NCBI GenBank assembly: GCA_000200715.1
Contig: DP000238.1
Location: 30,519 to 94,518, forward strand
Direction: 5' to 3'
Length of the DNA: 64,000 bases
DNA from: Cenarchaeum symbiosum A
GTDB taxonomy: Archaea > Thermoproteota > Nitrososphaeria > Nitrososphaerales > Nitrosopumilaceae
Made by a program: the position numbers and the translations under genes. This document shows, piece by piece, positions 44,985 through 56,061 of the stretch. The notes under the pieces were generated by a model that was not told the origin of the DNA, did not search any database, and worked only from the letters and a program-made list of their open reading frames with translations. Positions within the stretch are counted from its first letter, which is position 1, and each line of letters begins with the position of its first letter.

Positions 44985-45223
44985 TACACTGTTGCCTCCA
45001 GGGCAAGCTGCACATGTTCCAGCACTTCATCTATGGTGGATACTAGCTGTTTTACATTGTTTCCGGAAAAGTTCAGTACCACACCCCCGTCTATCTCTGC
45101 CATCTCCATGCTCAGCCCCTCGGGAAAGTCCACATTGTCCGGCCCGAGCGCCTCCAGGACGGCAGAGGCCCTGCCCGGGGGCAGGCTAGGCAGGGTTACC
45201 CTGACCCTGCACGTTAGAGACAT
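44984..45223 (-). CDS. pcc1: KEOPS complex subunit Pcc1
   Basis: 79 residues: ASAVLEALGPDNVDFPEGLS, then IDGGVVLNFSGNNVKQLVST and a helix DEVLEHVQLALEATV. The pattern of a P-E/D-N loop and a final helix matches Pcc1, the dimerising subunit of the KEOPS complex that makes t6A in tRNA. It overlaps the DHH gene by 38 bases and serS by one, inside a ribosomal/translation operon that is its usual archaeal home. Confidence 0.88.
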   Translation of the reverse strand: MSLTCRVRVTLPSLPPGRASAVLEALGPDNVDFPEGLSMEMAEIDGGVVLNFSGNNVKQLVSTIDEVLEHVQLALEATV

Positions 45224-46592
45224 TTGCCTCCAGATAGTCTAGAAATACGTCTAGCTTGTCCTTTGTTATGCGGGCGCCAGCTGCCGCTGCATGGCCCCCG
45301 CCTGCACCCTCAAATCTTTCTGCGCCCATCATAAGGTCGCGCAGGTTCACCCCGCTGGTACAGGAAAAGGACTTTCTTGAAGAGAATTTTACCGTGCCTG
45401 AGCCGCCTTCTGCCCTCAGTATGACTATTTTGCCCGAGCTCCTGGGCGATCCCGCTATTATCGATGATATGGTCCCCGTCATGGATTCTGGCACTACGCC
45501 TTCCCCGTTTACCATTATGCACTCTTTGCCGTCAGATATGCGCCACCTCTCGCTCGATAGTATCGCCATGTATTCCTTGGTCATGGTCCTGTACCTTTCC
45601 AGGATCCCCTCGCATTCTTCGAGCATTATATTCCGGTCCCCCATGCAGACTGCCATACCTGCCCCTGCCATGCCTATCCTTCCGCAGGAATTGAGCATTG
45701 TGGAGTATTCCCGGGCATCCCGGAGCAGGCCCATCCTGTCCTCTTCGGGAAATGTATACGTGTGCCCTATCAGGCTGCCCCCTAATTCCCCGTCATCGCT
45801 CCCTGTCGCAAACTTTGTAACAGCAGATATCAGCTTGCGCTTTTCATCCTCGACAAGCTCCGATGGAACACGCCACCTGCCCCCTTCCTTGAGCTTTATC
45901 CCGGTTGATTCCAGCAGGGACAAACATGCTGGCCTGTTCCAGGTCAAACCCTCTATGAACGGCTGCGTGGTAAATGCAAGCGCGTCAGGCAGAGGCCTTG
46001 TCTCCCTGCCTGCCAGCAGCAAATCAAGGTCTATCTCGACAAGACCGCGCTCTTTTGCGGCAAGCGCTATTTCCTGGTTTTTTCCCGTAAAGGATCTTTT
46101 CTCACCGGAATCCTGCCTGTCGCCAAGCGCGGATACTAGCGCGCATGGGGCCAAGTCGGTGTTATCCTCGCCGATAGCACATGCTGCAAGGTACGCCATT
46201 GTCCCGGCAGAAGCCTCCGAACCGCCGTCTATTCCAAACTTCCAGGCGTTTACCACGCGGGGATTCTCATCATCTGATACCGGGTGGTGGTCTAATACGA
46301 ACCATCCACCTTTCAGCTCATCGAGCTCGGCAGAGACACCTGATCCCAGGTCCATTATAACATGCAAATCATGTGCACTCCCGCCTAGCATCTTTGCCTC
46401 TTCGGGTCCAAGCCCGCCTACAGCCGATACAGAATACTTTGCGCCGGCACGAGACAGCGCCTTTGCCATTATCCCGCCGGATGCTATCCCGTCGCAGTCC
46501 ATGTGGGTTGTAACCATGACTGTCCCGCCCGAGCGTGCACACTCGGATATTCCGTCAGAAAAACTCGACAGGGCCTCGTCTATCGAGGCCAT
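45186..46592 (-). CDS. DHH-family phosphoesterase, RecJ-like
   Basis: 468 residues. DHH motifs: TTHMDCDGIASGG (D32, D34), VIMDLGSG (D81) and VLDHHPV (D101-H102-H103). The DHHA1 domain has GGGHAAAAGARI near the C-terminus. Archaeal RecJ-like proteins are exonucleases, some bound to the replicative helicase (GAN). The gene overlaps rps15 by one base (TAATG) and pcc1 by 38. DNA versus RNA substrate is not decided by sequence. Confidence 0.9.
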   Translation of the reverse strand: MASIDEALSSFSDGISECARSGGTVMVTTHMDCDGIASGGIMAKALSRAGAKYSVSAVGGLGPEEAKMLGGSAHDLHVIMDLGSGVSAELDELKGGWFVLDHHPVSDDENPRVVNAWKFGIDGGSEASAGTMAYLAACAIGEDNTDLAPCALVSALGDRQDSGEKRSFTGKNQEIALAAKERGLVEIDLDLLLAGRETRPLPDALAFTTQPFIEGLTWNRPACLSLLESTGIKLKEGGRWRVPSELVEDEKRKLISAVTKFATGSDDGELGGSLIGHTYTFPEEDRMGLLRDAREYSTMLNSCGRIGMAGAGMAVCMGDRNIMLEECEGILERYRTMTKEYMAILSSERWRISDGKECIMVNGEGVVPESMTGTISSIIAGSPRSSGKIVILRAEGGSGTVKFSSRKSFSCTSGVNLRDLMMGAERFEGAGGGHAAAAGARITKDKLDVFLDYLEANVSNVQGQGNPA

Positions 46593-47038
46593 TACTCGAG
46601 CTGCGCCACTACCGACTTGTACTTCCAGTCCTTTGGTATGCGGCCTATCCTCTTGTAGTATACGTCCAGGCGGTGCACCTTGGCCTCTATCAGTTCGAGA
46701 GACCTTACGTTTCTTCTATCACCCTTGTTGGCCCGAAGATGCCTCTGCAGGCCCACTGCCTTTTGGACGATATTGTTCAGATCTTCTGGAAGCTCCGGCG
46801 TGGCCCCGTGCTCCTCCATTATCTGAGTTACAGACTTGCCCGTTATGGGCCGTGTCAACGGGATGGCATGCTGGTCCCGGAGCTTGGAGCCTATCTGGCT
46901 TGGCGCGAGGCCCTCTTTTGCATACTTTACTATGAGATCTTCTACCTCGCCTGGGCCCTGTATCCAGGATGGCGCTTTCGGAGAAGATGGCCTTATCGAA
47001 TGAGACTTGCCGTGCCTGTGCGAGTGGAGTCTTCCCAT
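46592..47038 (-). CDS. rps15: Ribosomal protein S15 (uS15, archaeal S13e type)
   Basis: 148 residues: MGRLHSHRHGKSHSIRPSSP at the N-terminus is the archaeal/eukaryotic extension, and the C-terminal half (LRANKGDRRNVRSLELIEAK) is the S15 core. It is first of the rps15-DHH-pcc1-serS-rps3ae-COG1325 operon. A TATA-like ATTTTAAT lies on the minus strand at about 47061-47068. Confidence 0.96.
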   Translation of the reverse strand: MGRLHSHRHGKSHSIRPSSPKAPSWIQGPGEVEDLIVKYAKEGLAPSQIGSKLRDQHAIPLTRPITGKSVTQIMEEHGATPELPEDLNNIVQKAVGLQRHLRANKGDRRNVRSLELIEAKVHRLDVYYKRIGRIPKDWKYKSVVAQLE

Positions 47039-47170
47039 GGGATCAGGGCCTATTCATGGGATTAAAATCTTTGTTGGGGCATTCTGAGGGCCTGTTCCCT
47101 TGTATGCCTGCATTGGATAATCTAGAGAACGGTTAAATACTCTTACTAGGGTATCGCTTCAAGTGATAGC

Positions 47171-47500
47171 ATGATAAAGACTATACTACTTGGAGGTCTC
47201 TTCTCCATGATCGCGCTCGGTTCACTCGGCTTTATCGGCATCGCGTACGCCCAGTATCTTGGGAATGTAGGCGAAGAGGGTGAGACAGGCAAGCAGACGC
47301 TTGAAGAGGCACTGGAACTGGCACGCAGGCGAATTGACGCTGTCAACGCCAATCCCGCATCAGGCTCTGGGACGCCCTATCTTGATGCAAACGGGGTCCT
47401 CGGAGCATCGGCGATAGCCGGAGGGGTGTTCGGCGGTGTCGCAGGCGCTCTGTTCCTCAGGGGAAGAAAAGGCAAGTACGCTGCCCAGGGCAGAGGCTAG
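47171..47500 (+). CDS. Small two-helix membrane protein
   Basis: 109 residues. An N-terminal signal or membrane helix (MIKTILLGGLFSMIALGSLG), a charged helix (TLEEALELARRRIDAVNANP), and a second hydrophobic stretch at about 80-98 (IAGGVFGGVAGALFLRG) with a basic end. A TATA-like GGTTAAATACTC lies about 30 bases before the ATG. No family recognised. It is followed closely by the S17e gene. Confidence 0.6.
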   Translation: MIKTILLGGLFSMIALGSLGFIGIAYAQYLGNVGEEGETGKQTLEEALELARRRIDAVNANPASGSGTPYLDANGVLGASAIAGGVFGGVAGALFLRGRKGKYAAQGRG

Positions 47501-47588
47501 CCGTTTTCTATTTTTATTCGATGGTGTATCAGGGGGGCTATGCGGCGCAGCCGAAGGTATATCAAGCCCCGGGGGAACAGCTATCCCA

Positions 47589-47960
47589 GTGAACAGGATC
47601 AAAAAGCACACAGAAGAGCTGCTAAAGAACCACAAGTCCGAGTTCGGGCTCAGCTTTGAAGAGAACAAAAAGACGCTAGAGAGGCTGTCCACGATACGGT
47701 ATAAGATACTCAAAAACGAGATCGCCGGGTACATCACAAACCAGAACAAAAAAGAGGCCGAAAAGGCAAGGCGGGAGGCCGAGCGGGAGAGGAGCAACAG
47801 CCGCCAGGCGGAACCTGAGCCAGAGCCTAAAAAGAGCAGCGGGGACTTTACTGTGGGCATAGGCGGGATCAGAAAGTGGACCGGCGAGACGCCGCCCGAG
47901 GCGACGCCTGTATCCTACAAGCCTGCAGATGATCCTGCGGACGATCCTGCAACTGTCTAG
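47589..47960 (+). CDS. rps17e: Ribosomal protein S17e with extended C-terminal tail
   Basis: 123 residues from a GTG at 47589. FEENKKTLERLSTIRYKILK followed by NEIAGYITNQNKKE is the S17e core, which in most archaea ends near residue 60-65. Here a further 60-residue tail continues: an acidic/basic stretch (EKARREAERERSNSRQ), EPEPEPK and a PADDPADDP end. The start codon is not ATG and was chosen because the family begins immediately here. Confidence 0.78.
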   Translation: MNRIKKHTEELLKNHKSEFGLSFEENKKTLERLSTIRYKILKNEIAGYITNQNKKEAEKARREAERERSNSRQAEPEPEPKKSSGDFTVGIGGIRKWTGETPPEATPVSYKPADDPADDPATV

Positions 47961-47980
47961 ATTCAGATATTGGTATGCAA

Positions 47981-48164
47981 TTAGTCGTGTCTAATTTGTT
48001 TGTGCGGTGTATTCCATCTGGACTGTGTTCATGTGTTAGTCGTGTCTAATTTGTATGCGTGATTGTTCGTGCACTATATGGATGGATGGATTAGCCGTGT
48101 CTGATTTGTGCGTGGGATTGTTCGCATTTTAACCGGATAATTCCATTAGCCCTGTCTAATTAGC
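47981..48164. repeat. Four-unit repeat with an exact 55-base period
   Basis: The 19-base element TTAGTCGTGTCTAATTTGT is found at 47981, 48036, 48091 (TTAGCCGTGTCTGATTTGT) and 48146 (TTAGCCCTGTCTAATTAGC). All four starts are exactly 55 bases apart. The first ten to fifteen bases contain a TTAG...CTAA inverted pattern. Units 2 and 3 also share a second patch (GTGATTGTTCG / GGGATTGTTCG); the rest diverges. It lies between the S17e stop and the membrane protein at 48214. No unit is visible on either side. Confidence 0.85.
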
Positions 48165-48213
48165 ATGATCTAATTTTAGAGATGTTTATGTGCATGTGTT
48201 TTGGAGATAGAGC

Positions 48214-48513
48214 ATGAACGCATGGGCCAGGTTCTGGAAGTGGTATGAAGACAAGATACTGGGAAGCATACTGATCATCGCGGTGATACAGTTCATACAG
48301 ATACCGCATATGATCTGGAATGCCGACTTGTATTTGGAGCTGGGCACGATAAGCAGGGTGCATCCGGCGTTGGACTGGCTGCTGTACGGGGTGGACCTGA
48401 TAGAGATTGTATCGATAATCAATGTCGGGATGATAATGTACAGCCTTGTAAAGAAGAGAAGGGCCGAGAGGCGGATGGCGCACAAGGCTACCGAGAGCAG
48501 TCTCGCAGACTAG
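48214..48513 (+). CDS. Small membrane protein
   Basis: 99 residues with two transmembrane helices: ILGSILIIAVIQFIQIPHMI and a second at about 58-78 (VDLIEIVSIINVGMIMYSLV), then a basic cytosolic tail (KKRRAERRM). No family recognised. It is directly downstream of the four-unit 55-base repeat and its stop shares CTAG with the convergent HNH gene. Confidence 0.6.
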   Translation: MNAWARFWKWYEDKILGSILIIAVIQFIQIPHMIWNADLYLELGTISRVHPALDWLLYGVDLIEIVSIINVGMIMYSLVKKRRAERRMAHKATESSLAD

Positions 48514-49469
48514 CGTATACGTGGCGTGAAAAACTCGTCCCCGTTGTATTCCTTTATACACGTGTCAAAGAGTAGGCGGTACGATTCTTCGCTGTAGCCT
48601 GGCTTGAATTTTTTTAGACATTGGGGGATGCCCCTGTTGCGCTCGACCACCTTCTCGAATATGTCTTTTTCTGGCAGCATGTCCGATTTTGTACAGTTGC
48701 ACTGCTGGCAGGCAAGCGTGCAGTTGTACAGGTCGGTGGCAAATACATAGTTGTGGGGTATGACGTGGTCGACATGGGGCTTGGAGAACTTGTCCTCGCA
48801 GTAAAAGCACCTTGAATCCTGCCATTTTTTCATCTTCTCCTGTGCGATAGAGCCCAGGGCTTTTCTTCCCGTTGGCTCGCCTTCTATCTTGCTGGTTATC
48901 TGCGGGGTCATGCGGTTGAGCTTTTCAAGGTATCTTGCCAGTACGTTGTTTATCCCCTGTTTAAGCAGAACTCGGTGCCCCCGCAGAAACTCGATAATGT
49001 CATCGTCGAGCTGTATGGTGCTCGGGCCCGTCTTGACGTACAGGCCCTTCATGTCCGTCAGCAGGTGGACTAGGACCTCTGGTTTTATGCTCATCTTTAT
49101 GACCCTCTTTCTAAACTCGTCCATCTCTTCACTGGCCATCACCTCTATTGTGGGCGGCTTGTCGCCTTCCTTGTGGGCTGCCTTTACCAGCCGGGTTATG
49201 TTGGCATCTTGGCGGTCCTGGGACTGCCGGAGGCGGAAGCTGTATTCCATGTCCCAGTAGTATTTGGCAAACCTGGCTGCGATAAAGTTCAGGTCTATCA
49301 CCAGCTTGCCGTCTTTTCTCTCCAGCCATCTCTCCCCCGCGAGCCTTCTGGTACCATCCAGGTCCGCCACGTCCAATAGAGCCCGGAGGAATACCGGCTT
49401 GTACGTGCTTGCCATCCTGTTGGAATTGCCAAAGAACCGGTTGAACATACGGAGATAGTCCTTTGCCAT
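48510..49469 (-). CDS. HNH endonuclease-family protein
   Basis: 319 residues. The HNH part is C-terminal: RCFYCEDK (C221, C224), HVDHVIPH (H232, D234, H235), an asparagine near 249 and the second pair CQQC (C254, C257), forming a zinc-bound beta-beta-alpha metal site. Residues 1-200 are helical and unidentified, with a positively charged start (KDYLRMFNRFFGNSNR). The sequence says nuclease of DNA or RNA; target unknown. It stands alone, without a methylase or a CRISPR locus, and faces the GT2 chimera across a divergent region. Confidence 0.8.
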   Translation of the reverse strand: MAKDYLRMFNRFFGNSNRMASTYKPVFLRALLDVADLDGTRRLAGERWLERKDGKLVIDLNFIAARFAKYYWDMEYSFRLRQSQDRQDANITRLVKAAHKEGDKPPTIEVMASEEMDEFRKRVIKMSIKPEVLVHLLTDMKGLYVKTGPSTIQLDDDIIEFLRGHRVLLKQGINNVLARYLEKLNRMTPQITSKIEGEPTGRKALGSIAQEKMKKWQDSRCFYCEDKFSKPHVDHVIPHNYVFATDLYNCTLACQQCNCTKSDMLPEKDIFEKVVERNRGIPQCLKKFKPGYSEESYRLLFDTCIKEYNGDEFFTPRIR

Positions 49470-49649
49470 GAAAGAACACCTCCTTCGGAGTAATAATATT
49501 TTCCGGACGTGATCTGTGAATAAGCGGTATTTGATCTGCGTAGATTCATAAGCAGGATAGCACTGTATGTAGATCTACAGGAAATATCTGGGGTAACCGT
49601 GTGTTACTACAATCGACTGCTTTTTAACAAGGGCTCACTGCGTAGACAC

Positions 49650-52600
49650 ATGGACCTATACATCTTCCATGGTATAGTGGCACTACTGGTCTTTTGTGTC
49701 ATCATGGCTATATGCATAAAATGGTCTATGATTATCTACAACACGCTCTGGTCTAGACGACACGTGATTGGCATCAACGACGTGAACGAAAACTCCTCAC
49801 AACCAAAAGTTTCGATAATTGTACCCGCGAGAAACGAGAAGGGTGAAATAGCGAGATGCCTCGATACGCTTTTGAAACAAGATTATCATGACTACGAAGT
49901 GATCGCCGTCGACGACGGCTCCAATGATGGGACGTATGATATAATGAAGTCATTTAAGGATAGGGGTATCTTGAGTATGCAGACCGAAAAGCCCGACGGA
50001 TGGCTAGGTAAGTCCTGGGCCTGCTCGGAGGCAGCTAAGAGGGCATCCGGCGAGTTGCTCCTGTTTACAGATGCCGATACGGAACACAAACCGGATTCCC
50101 TCTCCAAGGCGGTTTCGCATATGACAGCGCACGGACTCGACTGTCTCTCATTAACTCCCCAACTTAAGATGGACTCTGTGTGGGCTAGAGCGGTGCTGCC
50201 ACTCATAACTTCCTTCAAGCTGGTAAAACCCTGTGGCATCATACAGTACACAGAGGCACAAGCCAACGACCCCCGTTGCAGGATGGGTGGCTTCAACGGA
50301 TCCTACCTACTCATCAAGACTGATGCCTATCAGAAGATCGGCGGCTTCGCCCGGGTAAGAAACGAGCTCTTTGAGGACTGGGCCCTTGGATTGATCGCGC
50401 GGGAAAATATGCTCAAAACACGTATAGCTGACGGTAGAAAACTAGTCAGCGCTGCTTGGGCCCGGGACCGACGTTCACTTAACGAAATACTTCGAAGGAT
50501 GACCATCCAGATGCATGGACGCAGAAAAATAACCAACATAAAAGATTTTTTCCTGCTGGCAGTATTGATGTTTGCTCCGTATATCGCCGCAGCAGCATCA
50601 TCTCTTGCGCTTATTCTCCATACAGAAGTTTCTACAGTCATGGTTACAGCAGGCGCTGCCGCGTCCGTCTTTTTCCACATGGCCGCATATGCAATACATG
50701 CAAAAGGTCTAGGACTGTCGCGGCGCAGCGTATTTCTAGCTCCCTTGGGCGGCTTTATCGCAGCGACGGGATATCTGAAAGGAATAACCGCAGAAAGTAC
50801 CACTTGGCGGGGTAGGAGAATAACCACCAAGGACATAGCAGATGAAAATATCATGTTGAATAATCATGTGAAAGCATACAAAAGATTTCTAGCGTGGTGG
50901 AAAGAATGGATCTATCCAAAATATGGCGAGGTACCACCCCCGTTTCATAGGAGATCGTGGTTAGTATGGGGGTTGATTTTTGGCATCGTGTTTATCATTA
51001 CGTATTACCTACACGTCTATGATCAGAGATTTGAACTAAAGAATGCTGCCGATATTCTGATAATTAATGTGGAAGTATTAGTTACGGTTCTATCTGTCAC
51101 ATTAGGCGCAACATTACTGGGTATTCAATTCAGGGCCCAATCCTACTCAATGTTGTTTCTTATGAAACAGATAAACAATTTAGTGGTATACCTGTTTGTA
51201 GGAATATTTGTATCACAAGTAATAATCAATCTAGGATTTATTATATGGATTCCAGAGAAAGATCTGGATGTATACATTCCATTTGTATTTTTGGGCACCG
51301 TATTCTCCATGTTTTATCTCGTCGGATACATATATCACATGATCCACAAGCTACATCCACATGAGATAATGAACGAAGTTGGAAGAGATATTAATAAAAT
51401 TGTGCTCGAGATAGGTAAGTGTAAAAAACGTAATGATAATTCGTACACGTCACCATTTACGACGGTAAATCTCGACAACTGGAATGCTATAATGCTGAAG
51501 GAAAAATCGCATAGATCTGAATATGAAAAATTTGACGTATGGAAAGAAATAATGTTGAGAACAGTAAAAAATGATAACGTTACTCTGTTTAAGAAAGGAC
51601 TAGAAAAAATCTTTGAAATATATGACAAAATCATGAAACTAATACTAGATGTTCATGCCGTAGAAATAAACAAATTGAATCAAGACGTAAAATACGAGAT
51701 AAACTTTGCCAATTTTGGTGTAATACGTCACAAGAATTATCACAAATGGGAGAAAGAAGTTCGACAATTAACTTTGACATTGCATTTTTTTGTCGAATAT
51801 GTTAACGATATCATGATATCTTCAATTGAAAATAACCGTGATCTTTGTGTTTTAACATTTATGAGAATATTCACGAGAAGAGACGAGTCATATTTAAGAA
51901 AATATGGTTGGCATTTCGGTCCGGGATTGATGTTCGATGTATGGTATGATGTAATGCGGCGGTGTATAATTGAGGAGAAAGATGATCTAATACGTCAGGG
52001 TATAGGCCATCTTGAAAAAAGACTGAAGTTACAATTATCTGAATGTAAAGAAACATGCGAAGATACAATAGTTCGAGGAGTTTTTCATCATGTCTTGTCG
52101 TCGTTAGTGCCTTTAGCGATGGATAAAAATAGCATCTATCTAAATGCATATCTAGACATTGTTGAAATATATCAGATTCCAAACATGCATGAATTACATG
52201 AATGTGAAACTAAGTCATGCCTACATCCTATATCTCCGTGGATAGTACCAGTAGAAAACCGACCTCAATTATTTGAATTAGTGAAAAATGGTATGCATCA
52301 TCCAGATGGGTGTTCATATATTATTGATAGCGCATATGGAAAAAGAGATTTGTCATTATTTTCTAGCGGAATTGACGCACTATTTGATAGCCTCATTGGT
52401 ACAAAATACTATCCCGTAAAAGTTATAAGATATCCTAATCCCCCTGAACGTATTCCTACAAACATTACGTTTGAAAATATTTCAGAAGAGGATATAAGAT
52501 TTAGATGGTTATATGAAGCACTTTTAGATATAACAGAAAATATAGAAGAGAGTGAATTCATATACGAAATTGTTTCCAAGTTAGAAGAGTTAAAATCTAA

Positions 52601-52859
52601 TTCACATATAGATCAAATATGGTTAAATTTTGTATCTAGAATAATTACATTGAAAAACCCTGGTTTAAACAACATTCGATCTGATTTAAAGAACATATTA
52701 CAAATTATAAACAAACCTTCACTACAGACAGATTATGTGGAATTACGAGAGAAATGTCAGAATATATTGCAGGAAATTCCCAGTTCAAAGAATGAATATG
52801 TGTCGTTGTATCATTTAGAGAGAATAGGAATAGATTTTCTATGTGAAAACAACAAATAA
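49650..52859 (+). CDS. Family 2 glycosyltransferase fused to a membrane domain and a large unknown C-terminal region
   Basis: 1069 residues from an ATG at 49650 (17 codons upstream are also open; TATA-like CTTTTTAAC at 49620-49628). After an N-terminal helix, residues about 52-285 are a GT2 domain: KVSIIVPARNEKGEI, AVDDGSNDGT, FTDADTEHKP and FEDWALG. Membrane helices and SESTTWRGR-type ending (TTWRGRR) close the enzyme near residue 390. A second part follows: four further helices (about 435-562), then about 500 soluble residues with no recognised domain. From nt 50,850 onward the DNA becomes much more AT-rich than before. It may modify surface glycans or lipids. Confidence 0.75.
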   Translation: MDLYIFHGIVALLVFCVIMAICIKWSMIIYNTLWSRRHVIGINDVNENSSQPKVSIIVPARNEKGEIARCLDTLLKQDYHDYEVIAVDDGSNDGTYDIMKSFKDRGILSMQTEKPDGWLGKSWACSEAAKRASGELLLFTDADTEHKPDSLSKAVSHMTAHGLDCLSLTPQLKMDSVWARAVLPLITSFKLVKPCGIIQYTEAQANDPRCRMGGFNGSYLLIKTDAYQKIGGFARVRNELFEDWALGLIARENMLKTRIADGRKLVSAAWARDRRSLNEILRRMTIQMHGRRKITNIKDFFLLAVLMFAPYIAAAASSLALILHTEVSTVMVTAGAAASVFFHMAAYAIHAKGLGLSRRSVFLAPLGGFIAATGYLKGITAESTTWRGRRITTKDIADENIMLNNHVKAYKRFLAWWKEWIYPKYGEVPPPFHRRSWLVWGLIFGIVFIITYYLHVYDQRFELKNAADILIINVEVLVTVLSVTLGATLLGIQFRAQSYSMLFLMKQINNLVVYLFVGIFVSQVIINLGFIIWIPEKDLDVYIPFVFLGTVFSMFYLVGYIYHMIHKLHPHEIMNEVGRDINKIVLEIGKCKKRNDNSYTSPFTTVNLDNWNAIMLKEKSHRSEYEKFDVWKEIMLRTVKNDNVTLFKKGLEKIFEIYDKIMKLILDVHAVEINKLNQDVKYEINFANFGVIRHKNYHKWEKEVRQLTLTLHFFVEYVNDIMISSIENNRDLCVLTFMRIFTRRDESYLRKYGWHFGPGLMFDVWYDVMRRCIIEEKDDLIRQGIGHLEKRLKLQLSECKETCEDTIVRGVFHHVLSSLVPLAMDKNSIYLNAYLDIVEIYQIPNMHELHECETKSCLHPISPWIVPVENRPQLFELVKNGMHHPDGCSYIIDSAYGKRDLSLFSSGIDALFDSLIGTKYYPVKVIRYPNPPERIPTNITFENISEEDIRFRWLYEALLDITENIEESEFIYEIVSKLEELKSNSHIDQIWLNFVSRIITLKNPGLNNIRSDLKNILQIINKPSLQTDYVELREKCQNILQEIPSSKNEYVSLYHLERIGIDFLCENNK

Positions 52860-53414
52860 AATCTGTATGTGTTAACCCTAGATCGTTTGAATATAATATT
52901 GTGTTCAAATCGATTTAACTTGTTACAAAACTACTAATTCTTCTGACAGTTGTATGCTGCAACATGCCTATCACTATCGACCAAAAACTCTCAGAATTGT
53001 ATGAAGCTATCTAGGTGTCCAAATGCTCTATATGTATAGCACTAAAAGATGTCCTTCTATCATCGAACCTGTATTGATCTCTTCCCATCAATATATTTGC
53101 ATGTGCTGAATATGAGCATCATTCGAATTGTACCGCATGTGTCTACATAGTCTACAAATAACTCACATAATATAGAATGATTTGGACCTGTCTTGGCATA
53201 CTGTTATCTACGTACGATGTATTTACGTCACTATCCACACCTGCTCCTGCAGGTTCCTCATGTTTAGCTACGTCGTTACTTCGGTAATTTGACAAACAAC
53301 CACATGTTTGTCCTGAAAAGTCGAGTGCATCGCAGCTTCCCTAGAACACGGTGGCGGCATCTACATGGACACACCCTGTGACTACAAGTATAGACATCTC
53401 ATAGAACCAGAGGC
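52860..53414. other. AT-rich gene-free stretch
   Basis: No open frame of note on either strand, no tRNA, no clear hairpin or repeat. Base composition stays AT-rich like the end of the preceding chimera, unlike the rest of the window. It may be decayed sequence at the border of an acquired block, or untranslated DNA of unknown role. Confidence 0.6.
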
Positions 53415-53582
53415 CTACTTTTTCGCGCCCAGGTTGCGGTTCTTTAGACGGAGATAGTTGTTCCTGCACTTTCTGCACCGGGTGGCGGCCATCGAGTTTC
53501 TCGCCCCGCAGTAAAAGCAGATCTTCATGTGGAGGCGGGCCTTTTGGGCTATCTGCCTTTTCGCCACGTCCGTTATCGGCAT
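53415..53582 (-). CDS. rpl40e: Ribosomal protein L40e (eL40)
   Basis: 55 residues: MPITDVAKRQIAQKARLHMK, then CFYCGARN and CRKCRNNYLR, giving the CxxC...CxxC zinc site of L40e, with a basic end. Length and motif are typical of archaeal L40e, a large-subunit protein near the sarcin-ricin loop. It is a short minus-strand gene at the edge of the AT-rich stretch, with sucD beginning after it. Confidence 0.92.
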   Translation of the reverse strand: MPITDVAKRQIAQKARLHMKICFYCGARNSMAATRCRKCRNNYLRLKNRNLGAKK

Positions 53583-53611
53583 AATGTATCTCTCCGAGCC
53601 TCTCTTTTAAT

Positions 53612-54526
53612 CTAATCGGATCCCTGTATCTTTCTGGCCAAGAGAATGGGGACCTCGGCGGGCCTCTTTGCGACAGGCACGTTTGCCTTGTTGAACATGG
53701 ATATCTTGGATTCTGCCGATCCGTAATTCCCCATGACTATGGCCCCTGCGTGGCCCATCCTCTTTTCCTTGGGGGCGGCCCTGCCGGCGATATACGCGAC
53801 AGTCGGCTTGTTGAATTTTGTCTCGGTTATCCTCTGGGCGAGCAGCTCTTCGGCATCCCCGCCTATCTCGCCCACTACTACAAGGCCCCTCAGACCCGGT
53901 ATCTCCCGCACCATCTCAAAGGCGTCAATCAGCCGGGTTCCGTTTATGGGGTCGCCGCCTATCCCTATTGTTATGGCCTGGCCAAAGCCGGCCTGGGTCA
54001 GAGCGTTTGATATCTCGTACAGTAGAGTCCCGCTCTTTGAGAGTACAGCTACATCTCCGAGCTTGAAGGGGCCGGCGGGCATTATCCCCACTTTAATCAC
54101 CTCGGGTATTATCACACCGGGAGTATTGGGGCCTATAACGATCGCGTCTTTTTTACGCGCAAGCTCGAGCAGCTCTAGAGTATCCCTGACGGGGACGTGC
54201 TCCGGTATGGCGACAAGCAGCTTGATACCTGCTTCGAGTGCGTCTTTTGCCGCAGATAAAAAGAACTTTGCGGGAACAAACATGGCGGATATCTGGGCGC
54301 CTGTGGCCTCAACTGCCTCGCCGATATTCCCGTACAGGGGTATCCCCTCAAAGTCCTTGGCACCCTCCCTCAGTGTTACACCTGCTGCAATGTTGGTCCC
54401 ATACTCTTTCATTAGACGTGTATGTGTAGAGCCGAACTTACCCGTAATCCCCTGTACTACGACGGGCTTTTTTCCATAGTCGGAATCCCCGGGTGTTCCC
54501 CGGAGCAGCTGAATAATATCGGTCAT
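53612..54526 (-). CDS. sucD: Succinyl-CoA synthetase alpha subunit
   Basis: 304 residues. VVVQGITGKFGSTHTRLMKE (CoA/nucleotide-binding region), VIGPNTPGVI, GDVAVLSKSGTLLYE and the phospho-histidine region RMGHAGAIVMGNYG are conserved. It interconverts succinyl-CoA and succinate with ADP/GDP phosphorylation, linking the TCA pathway with CoA pools. ATGA overlap with sucC shows translational coupling. Confidence 0.96.
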   Translation of the reverse strand: MTDIIQLLRGTPGDSDYGKKPVVVQGITGKFGSTHTRLMKEYGTNIAAGVTLREGAKDFEGIPLYGNIGEAVEATGAQISAMFVPAKFFLSAAKDALEAGIKLLVAIPEHVPVRDTLELLELARKKDAIVIGPNTPGVIIPEVIKVGIMPAGPFKLGDVAVLSKSGTLLYEISNALTQAGFGQAITIGIGGDPINGTRLIDAFEMVREIPGLRGLVVVGEIGGDAEELLAQRITETKFNKPTVAYIAGRAAPKEKRMGHAGAIVMGNYGSAESKISMFNKANVPVAKRPAEVPILLARKIQGSD

Positions 54527-55629
54527 TTTTCGATCCCCATTACTGCTGCGCTTATAGCGTCCTCTACCGTATCGTACAAGTTGGTGCTCGAGCTCTTTAG
54601 CATCTCTCTGGCTTTGTCGGATTCTGCGCCCCTTAATCTGGCATATACTGGCAGGTCCACTATTCCATCATCGTACGCCTTTAGAAATGCAGACGCTATC
54701 GTTGTAGTCTTTACTATGCCCCCGTACAGGTTAACCAGAATTCCCTTTACCCTGTCCATTTTGTTTATCAGGGTAAGGGCTTCATAGACTGATTCTGTAG
54801 TGGCACCGCCTCCCACATCCAAAAAGCACGCGGGCCTGCCCCCGCTGTCAGAGAGCATATCAAGTGTCGACATGACTAGCCCCGCGCCATTCCCCACTAC
54901 AGCAATGTTCCCGTCAAGCTCGACAAGTGAGAATCCGCTCTTCTGGGCCCTCTCTTCGAGCTCGGAGGATTCCCTGTACTTTTCCAGCTCTTGGTGCCTG
55001 AATGCGGCATTATCATCGGTCATTACCTTGCCGTCTAAAGCCAAGAGTGTCCCATCTGATAGTATGGCCAGGGGGTTTATCTCTGCCAATTCCGCCTCTT
55101 TTTCTGTAGTGAGTAGTGAGAGCTTTTGCAGTATGTCGGATAGATCTTTGGCGGCAGCACCCTCGAGGCCCATCTCAGATGCCACTTGTGCTGCGACCTC
55201 CGGGCTTACCTTCCCCAGGCCGACCTCCTTTATGATCTGGCTTTTTACTGATTCTATCTCCACTCCCCCTTCTGCGGATGCTATCACAGTATAGCATCTT
55301 TTGCTCCTGTTTAGGAACAGCGACAGGTAGAGCTCCTTTGATATGTCGGCCATCTTCTCTAGTAAAATTGCCCTTGCCCTCTCGCCCTTTATCGTCAGGT
55401 CGTACACCTGCGGATACCGCAGTACAAGCTCGTCTTCGTTTGTGCATTTTTGTATCCCGCCTGCTTTGCCGCGGCCCCCGACTGGCACCTGTATCTTTAT
55501 GACAAACGGGTATCCTATGTCCTTGGCATCTTTTCTTGCCTGTTCTATTCCCTTTGATGCCCTGCCCTGCGGCACCTTTATCCCGTATTCTGCAAAGAGC
55601 TCCTTTGCCTGATACTCCAAGAGGCGCAA
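54523..55629 (-). CDS. sucC: Succinyl-CoA synthetase beta subunit
   Basis: 368 residues with an ATP-grasp N-terminal half (LLEYQAKELFAEYGIKVPQG, VIKIQVPVGGRGKAGGIQ) and the C-terminal CoA-ligase part (PACFLDVGGGATTESVYEAL, ILVNLYGGIVKTTTIA). It binds nucleotide and succinate. It is first of the sucC-sucD operon on the minus strand. Confidence 0.96.
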   Translation of the reverse strand: MRLLEYQAKELFAEYGIKVPQGRASKGIEQARKDAKDIGYPFVIKIQVPVGGRGKAGGIQKCTNEDELVLRYPQVYDLTIKGERARAILLEKMADISKELYLSLFLNRSKRCYTVIASAEGGVEIESVKSQIIKEVGLGKVSPEVAAQVASEMGLEGAAAKDLSDILQKLSLLTTEKEAELAEINPLAILSDGTLLALDGKVMTDDNAAFRHQELEKYRESSELEERAQKSGFSLVELDGNIAVVGNGAGLVMSTLDMLSDSGGRPACFLDVGGGATTESVYEALTLINKMDRVKGILVNLYGGIVKTTTIASAFLKAYDDGIVDLPVYARLRGAESDKAREMLKSSSTNLYDTVEDAISAAVMGIEK

Positions 55630-55704
55630 TCTAGGGATAATGCCCGGGACGGTCCTTATAATCGTATGAAGGGGAACAACGCAGGATTTACTGCAGACTC
55701 GTAT

Positions 55705-55725
55705 CCGCCGGTTCCGCGCCGGCGG
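55705..55725 (-). terminator. GC-rich hairpin after the 55726 gene
   Basis: CCGCCGG (55705-55711) and CCGGCGG (55719-55725) are perfect reverse complements with a 7-base loop, directly abutting the stop codon of the minus-strand gene at 55726. Archaeal terminators normally use T-runs; no T-run follows, so this may instead be an RNA 3' stabiliser or a leader element of sucC. Confidence 0.35.
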
Positions 55726-56061
55726 TCACGGCTGGCCAAAGCGGCTCTCCAAAAGCGCGATGATCTCCTGCAGCCTGTCCCGGCTTATGCGGATCAGCCT
55801 TGCCGGGTACTCGTCTATCGTGTATACTAGCTGCTCGTTGAAGGTGGGCGGAACGGGCCCGCCAGATGTGACGCGCTGCTCGATTACATGGTCCACCACC
55901 AGCGTGCAGATGGTCTCTTCATAACAGTCCTCTTCCTCTTCAAGGGTCTGCCTGTACAGCAGGATCGGCGTGCCCGTCCTGTTGACGTCGGCGCTGCCGC
56001 GCCGGAGCAGTCTGACCAGGTGCTGTACCTGCCATGAATCCAGGCTGATCTGTTTTACCAC
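55726..56061 (-). CDS. Small protein, unknown function
   Basis: 111 residues: MVKQISLDSWQVQHLVRLLR, then PILLYRQTLEEEEDCYEETI and the helix DRLQEIIALLESRF. Alpha/beta, acidic, one or two cysteines, no membrane segment. It lies between ileS and sucC on the same strand and could be co-transcribed with either. No family recognised. Confidence 0.55.
   Translation of the reverse strand: MVKQISLDSWQVQHLVRLLRRGSADVNRTGTPILLYRQTLEEEEDCYEETICTLVVDHVIEQRVTSGGPVPPTFNEQLVYTIDEYPARLIRISRDRLQEIIALLESRFGQP

Follow-up and report, generated by a model that had tools for sequence, protein, structure and literature searches.

Glycosyltransferases of the HpnB/CruG type belong to a class of enzymes that transfer sugars onto lipid carriers on the inner side of the membrane. 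The GT2 enzymes of this type (TIGR03469, NF045692) are the closest described relatives of the first half of an open reading frame in Cenarchaeum symbiosum A, resembling it over their full length (residues 35-407 of P0001) and sharing its motifs and C-terminal membrane segments. However, the C-terminus of the C. symbiosum enzyme continues into another gene. The likeness of that second gene to DUF2254 proteins (PF10011) is confined to a membrane part, whereas the rest of the profile is unmatched and a different, longer helical region lies 3' of the membrane part. This region is compatible with HEAT/ARM-type alpha-solenoids in its predicted stacked antiparallel helix pairs and in its structural matches to generic helical-repeat proteins, but it has no sequence match to them and its structural scores are at the level of any helical repeat.

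The window, that is, the whole 64,000-nucleotide stretch analyzed here, derives from a genome of 2,045,086 bases in a single contig, that of a symbiont of an Axinella sponge with relatives among the Nitrosopumilaceae. The frame is open without interruption from a GTG at 49599 or an ATG at 49650 to a stop at 52859 on the forward strand, and includes the following features.

49650-50852, + strand: complete HpnB/CruG-like GT2 glycosyltransferase of 401 codons (PF00535, TIGR03469, motifs), with GTG 49599 as alternative start
50842-50853, + strand: join, reaching from the best changepoint in composition to the second gene's ATG
50853-52859, + strand: complete second gene of 668 amino acids, four transmembrane helices and an alpha-solenoid, 33% GC (stand-alone homologues, paralogues, GC)
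50961-51341, + strand: four-helix membrane part, DUF2254-like (PF10011, alignment, hydropathy)
51342-52856, + strand: predicted cytosolic alpha-solenoid (all-helical models, homologue L042, generic helical-repeat structural matches)
51531-51626, + strand: first Trp-anchored helical hairpin repeat (repeat HMM)
51933-52028, + strand: second Trp-anchored helical hairpin repeat (repeat HMM)
52860-53420, no strand: non-coding, AT-rich tail separating the second gene from the gene for ribosomal protein L40e (composition)

Two genes in one open frame

Total GC is 0.496 before and 0.329 after a changepoint at 50842 (2-log-unit support 50810-51029), in agreement with an earlier note on this DNA that the frame turns AT-rich near 50,850. 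The changepoint in GC3 is broader (best 51018, range 50403-51198). In a codon-usage scan, which the earlier note had suggested, the codon-adaptation index, referenced to six neighboring core genes, is 0.69 to 0.76 in the core genes, 0.62 in the glycosyltransferase, and 0.51 in the second half. The composition break is a gene boundary, and the changepoint at 50842 coincides with both the end of the glycosyltransferase (codon 401) and ATG 50853.

The identification of the first third as a GT2 enzyme was confirmed by a match to PF00535 over residues 1-401, counted from ATG 49650 (E 7.5e-28; 98 bits against a gathering cut-off of 23.3), and by an intact set of acidic catalytic motifs (DD 88, DAD 141, and ED 242) with a Q/RxxxR-like QMHGR (QxxGR) at 287. 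The enzyme aligns to positions 5-376 of the 386 in the HpnB profile TIGR03469 but scores far below its equivalog cut-off (145.7 versus 379.25 bits). The C-terminal ends of 23 distinct homologues from related genomes fall within a few residues of the codon-401 column, the tail residues of the window enzyme align with the tails of most of them, and the next codon is ATG 50853. The nearest relative of the window enzyme in the tree is a stand-alone gene of IBTHAUMO2 (C91; support 0.995), a grouping based on long branches. The housekeeping Nitrosopumilaceae enzyme, represented in the same genome by a copy at 1261078, clusters with the copies of relatives apart from this pair, and the window enzyme is 38% identical to it. 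An accessory HpnB/CruG-like lipid glycosyltransferase is the best explanation for the first half. In another, GC-rich genome (L070 1060-9388, G319:C44), two adjacent HpnB-like glycosyltransferases lie 3' of a pair of AT-rich ORFs that have a P-loop motif and GC contents of 33% and 45%.

From ATG 50853 onward, the second half can be aligned over its length with a family of complete proteins, and on these sequence comparisons it is a whole gene rather than an extension of the glycosyltransferase. The suggestion that the frame is a gene fused to foreign DNA is largely right, since both halves are complete elsewhere and the composition breaks on their boundary. The other possibility raised in the earlier note, a long acquired gene whose N-terminal part has adapted, was unsupported because the join is where related glycosyltransferases stop and where relatives of the C-terminal part start. 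That note had also held that orthologues with the same full-length architecture and even composition across many genomes would indicate a native gene; none of the genomes searched has the full-length architecture.

A predicted membrane-solenoid family in two sponge symbionts

The four helices noticed earlier downstream of the glycosyltransferase correspond to hydrophobic segments at residues 438-561, after the join. This membrane part holds the family's most conserved stretch in the alignment, VTLGxTLLGxQFRAQ[ST]Y. In the window copy it passes the gathering cut-off of PF10011 (E 5.8e-8; 31.5-32.4 bits against 28.8) but matches only positions 17-180 of the 368 in the domain, and most homologues score under the cut-off. 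The C-terminal region, earlier called unidentified and the most promising undescribed domain in the window, thus belongs to a family of whole homologues and has a weakly DUF2254-like membrane part, while the description still fits its soluble solenoid, where a profile search of about 450 residues gave no family match.

The soluble region is predicted to be an alpha-solenoid with a recurring Trp hairpin. An HMM of the first hairpin, later iterated, detected a third hairpin in four homologues, scoring above all 1000 shuffles, which indicates that divergent repeats are present in this region. Structure prediction, also proposed in the earlier note, gave an all-helical but weak model for the window copy (pLDDT 53), built from four sequences with the genome's own paralogues left out. 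The model for the homologue L042 was fairer, with a pLDDT of 65.5 overall and blocks of 69-92 within residues 231-410. VIA-align and fold searches returned generic helical-repeat proteins as the best structural matches, and a sequence search of the module against solved structures returned nothing convincing.

Four paralogues are present in the C. symbiosum genome, all without a glycosyltransferase.

112019-114715: par2, 52% GC
96313-99045: par3, GC within 31-39%
2008886-2012268: par4, split over two frames, GC within 31-39%
2036671-2040713: par5, split over two frames, with one ambiguous base, GC within 31-39%

Upstream of the membrane part of par5 is a long in-frame stretch (L032 14037-15674, - strand) with a weak Toprim-like match (E 0.0066), and this may be a further case of the module being joined to a different gene. 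Three stand-alone module genes, none with a glycosyltransferase, were found in IBTHAUMO2, a symbiont of the sponge Ianthella basta that we take to be Ca. Nitrosospongia ianthellae (PMC6790972). They lie at L040, L041, and L042, and the lengths in the set are 586, 635, and 641 amino acids. The IBTHAUMO2 genes and the paralogues share the membrane part, the conserved motif, the helical region, and a similar length with the window module, but are 24-42% identical to it and have no glycosyltransferase fused to them.

A first scan of the genome contigs with a single sequence as query gave no match. With a family profile, and in a set containing one genome per species, members were identified in two genomes, both from sponge symbionts, whether 250 genomes of the taxonomic family or 400 of the order were searched. 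No additional convincing member was found among 398 genomes of the phylum, where two marginal matches (E 0.007-0.009) were discarded as having internal stops and covering short stretches, and none in G001, the second species of the genus. No match was obtained for the module when phages, plasmids, viral contigs, and PHROGs were searched. Eleven gene families exclusive to the two symbionts are reported in PMC6790972, and the module family may already figure among these as an unnamed cluster.

Genomic surroundings

Directly upstream of the glycosyltransferase and divergent from it is an HNH endonuclease gene (48510-49469, - strand; PF01844, E 2.2e-7) with a host-like codon index of 0.76. By par2 is a defense-like island (L036 2823-18858, G000:C1:114822-130857) with two Cas3-type helicase genes, of which one is Cas3g (E 1.1e-160), together with an HmaA-like helicase, apparently split into oppositely oriented pieces with a stretch of N between them. 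Five mutually similar GC-rich ORFs, transposase-like by eye, form a run at L031 9409-17129 (G000:C1:2014409-2022129); an ORF in IBTHAUMO2 (L042 8102-8524) resembles them and has no profile match. At 2023-2035 kb of the genome, two near-identical long genes resembling those for surface proteins (L031 18388-20000 with L032 2-3928, and L032 5326-10519) lie a few kilobases apart in opposite orientation.

A search for attachment or repeat sequences at the boundary, as the earlier note had recommended, did not identify an integrated element. No tRNA was found at 46000-56000, and a flanking direct repeat (22 nucleotides, 77%) was judged to be chance. The flanking core genes (a DHH-family protein, 45186-46592, and succinyl-CoA ligase, 53612-54526) lie at distant positions in G001 and G003, and in G319 they occupy separate contigs, so the empty site cannot be read. 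A tblastn search of the AT-rich tail for a remnant of the family gave nothing convincing.

Origin of the second gene and reality of the join

We consider it likely that the frame comprises two genes, of which the second was acquired horizontally. GC content is 31-39% in the window copy, par3, par4, par5, and L041, and reaches 52% in par2, 57% in L042, and 62% in L040, in GC-rich genomes, a spread that would be expected if the acquisitions date from different times. In free-living relatives, the GC content is 32.5-34.2% (PMC7848895), which makes a low-GC thaumarchaeal donor possible, and no donor of the module was seen among the genomes, phages, plasmids, and viral contigs searched. The same values could be taken to mean that the AT-rich half is native and old, and that it retained its ancestral composition as GC increased in the rest of the genome. 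Sponge symbionts often have a higher GC content than free-living relatives (PMC7848895), such that an unchanged relic would be AT-rich without any recent acquisition. This reading is very unlikely, because the same protein occurs at high GC in par2, L042, and L040 and the module is present in no low-GC relative among 250 genomes. Fusion of the second gene to a glycosyltransferase was found in no second genome among those searched, and all other members of both families are stand-alone. The join contains no in-frame stop, and since both other frames carry stops on either side (50836, 50843, 50857, and 50861), the separation could have been lost through a change or error at one base. There is a substantial, if slightly less than even, probability that these are adjacent and probably overlapping genes encoding two separate proteins, their apparent fusion being due to a single base that was miscalled or is polymorphic in an assembly made from a natural population; the ambiguous base in par5 and the two frames of both par4 and par5 also point to errors or decay in the family. 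However, the glycosyltransferase tail is in frame to codon 401 and the module from its first codon, which confines any such error to a few bases around the join. In our judgment, the existence of a truly fused product could go either way.

A different role for the locus, with the module serving at the membrane as an effector or sensor against phages and the glycosyltransferase as a linked accessory in a defense island, would be consistent with several of its neighbors. Par2 adjoins the Cas3g-like gene, the IBTHAUMO2 C91 glycosyltransferase adjoins DrmC-like, MkoA-like, and PbeA-like ORFs, and the HNH gene adjoining the window glycosyltransferase has weak PtuB-like matches in PADLOC; the distribution of the family is also patchy, multi-copy, divergent, and AT-rich. 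However, PADLOC profiles did not match P0001 or par2, the module has no recognized catalytic domain, and the remaining copies are alone between core genes or beside transposase-like ORFs, without common partners. Given this isolation, the link to defense is a lead only, and we regard a defense function as unlikely.

Proposed mechanism and implications

Under the reading of two joined genes, two complete genes would have come to lie end to end in one frame, with loss of the stop of the first joining them. The glycosyltransferase has three clear membrane segments, and there are positive charges near the join, which together suggest that the glycosyltransferase domain, the join, and the solenoid are all cytosolic, a topology compatible with a single polypeptide. 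A real join would give one membrane protein of seven or eight transmembrane helices with the glycosyltransferase domain and the solenoid in the cytosol. The enzyme would load a sugar onto a lipid carrier on the inner side of the membrane, and the joined protein would tether it to the solenoid, which could serve as a docking scaffold keeping the transferase and a partner together at the membrane. We propose this docking role, suggested by the predicted fold, tentatively. It is a more speculative and rather improbable extension that a true fusion links a lipid glycosyltransferase with a new family of membrane-solenoid proteins moving between sponge-symbiotic thaumarchaea, as a surface-glycosylation machine linked to a life inside the host.

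The fused copy illustrates that a change in composition inside an open frame can reveal a gene boundary which would escape annotation. It also draws attention to a small family, with four transmembrane helices and a solenoid, for which we found no description. The distribution of this family is sharp, with multiple copies in each of two sponge-symbiotic ammonia-oxidizing archaea and none elsewhere in their taxonomic family as sampled. This makes the family a tractable candidate for adaptation related to hosts or viruses, and it may serve to mark the exchange of genes between symbionts of sponges.
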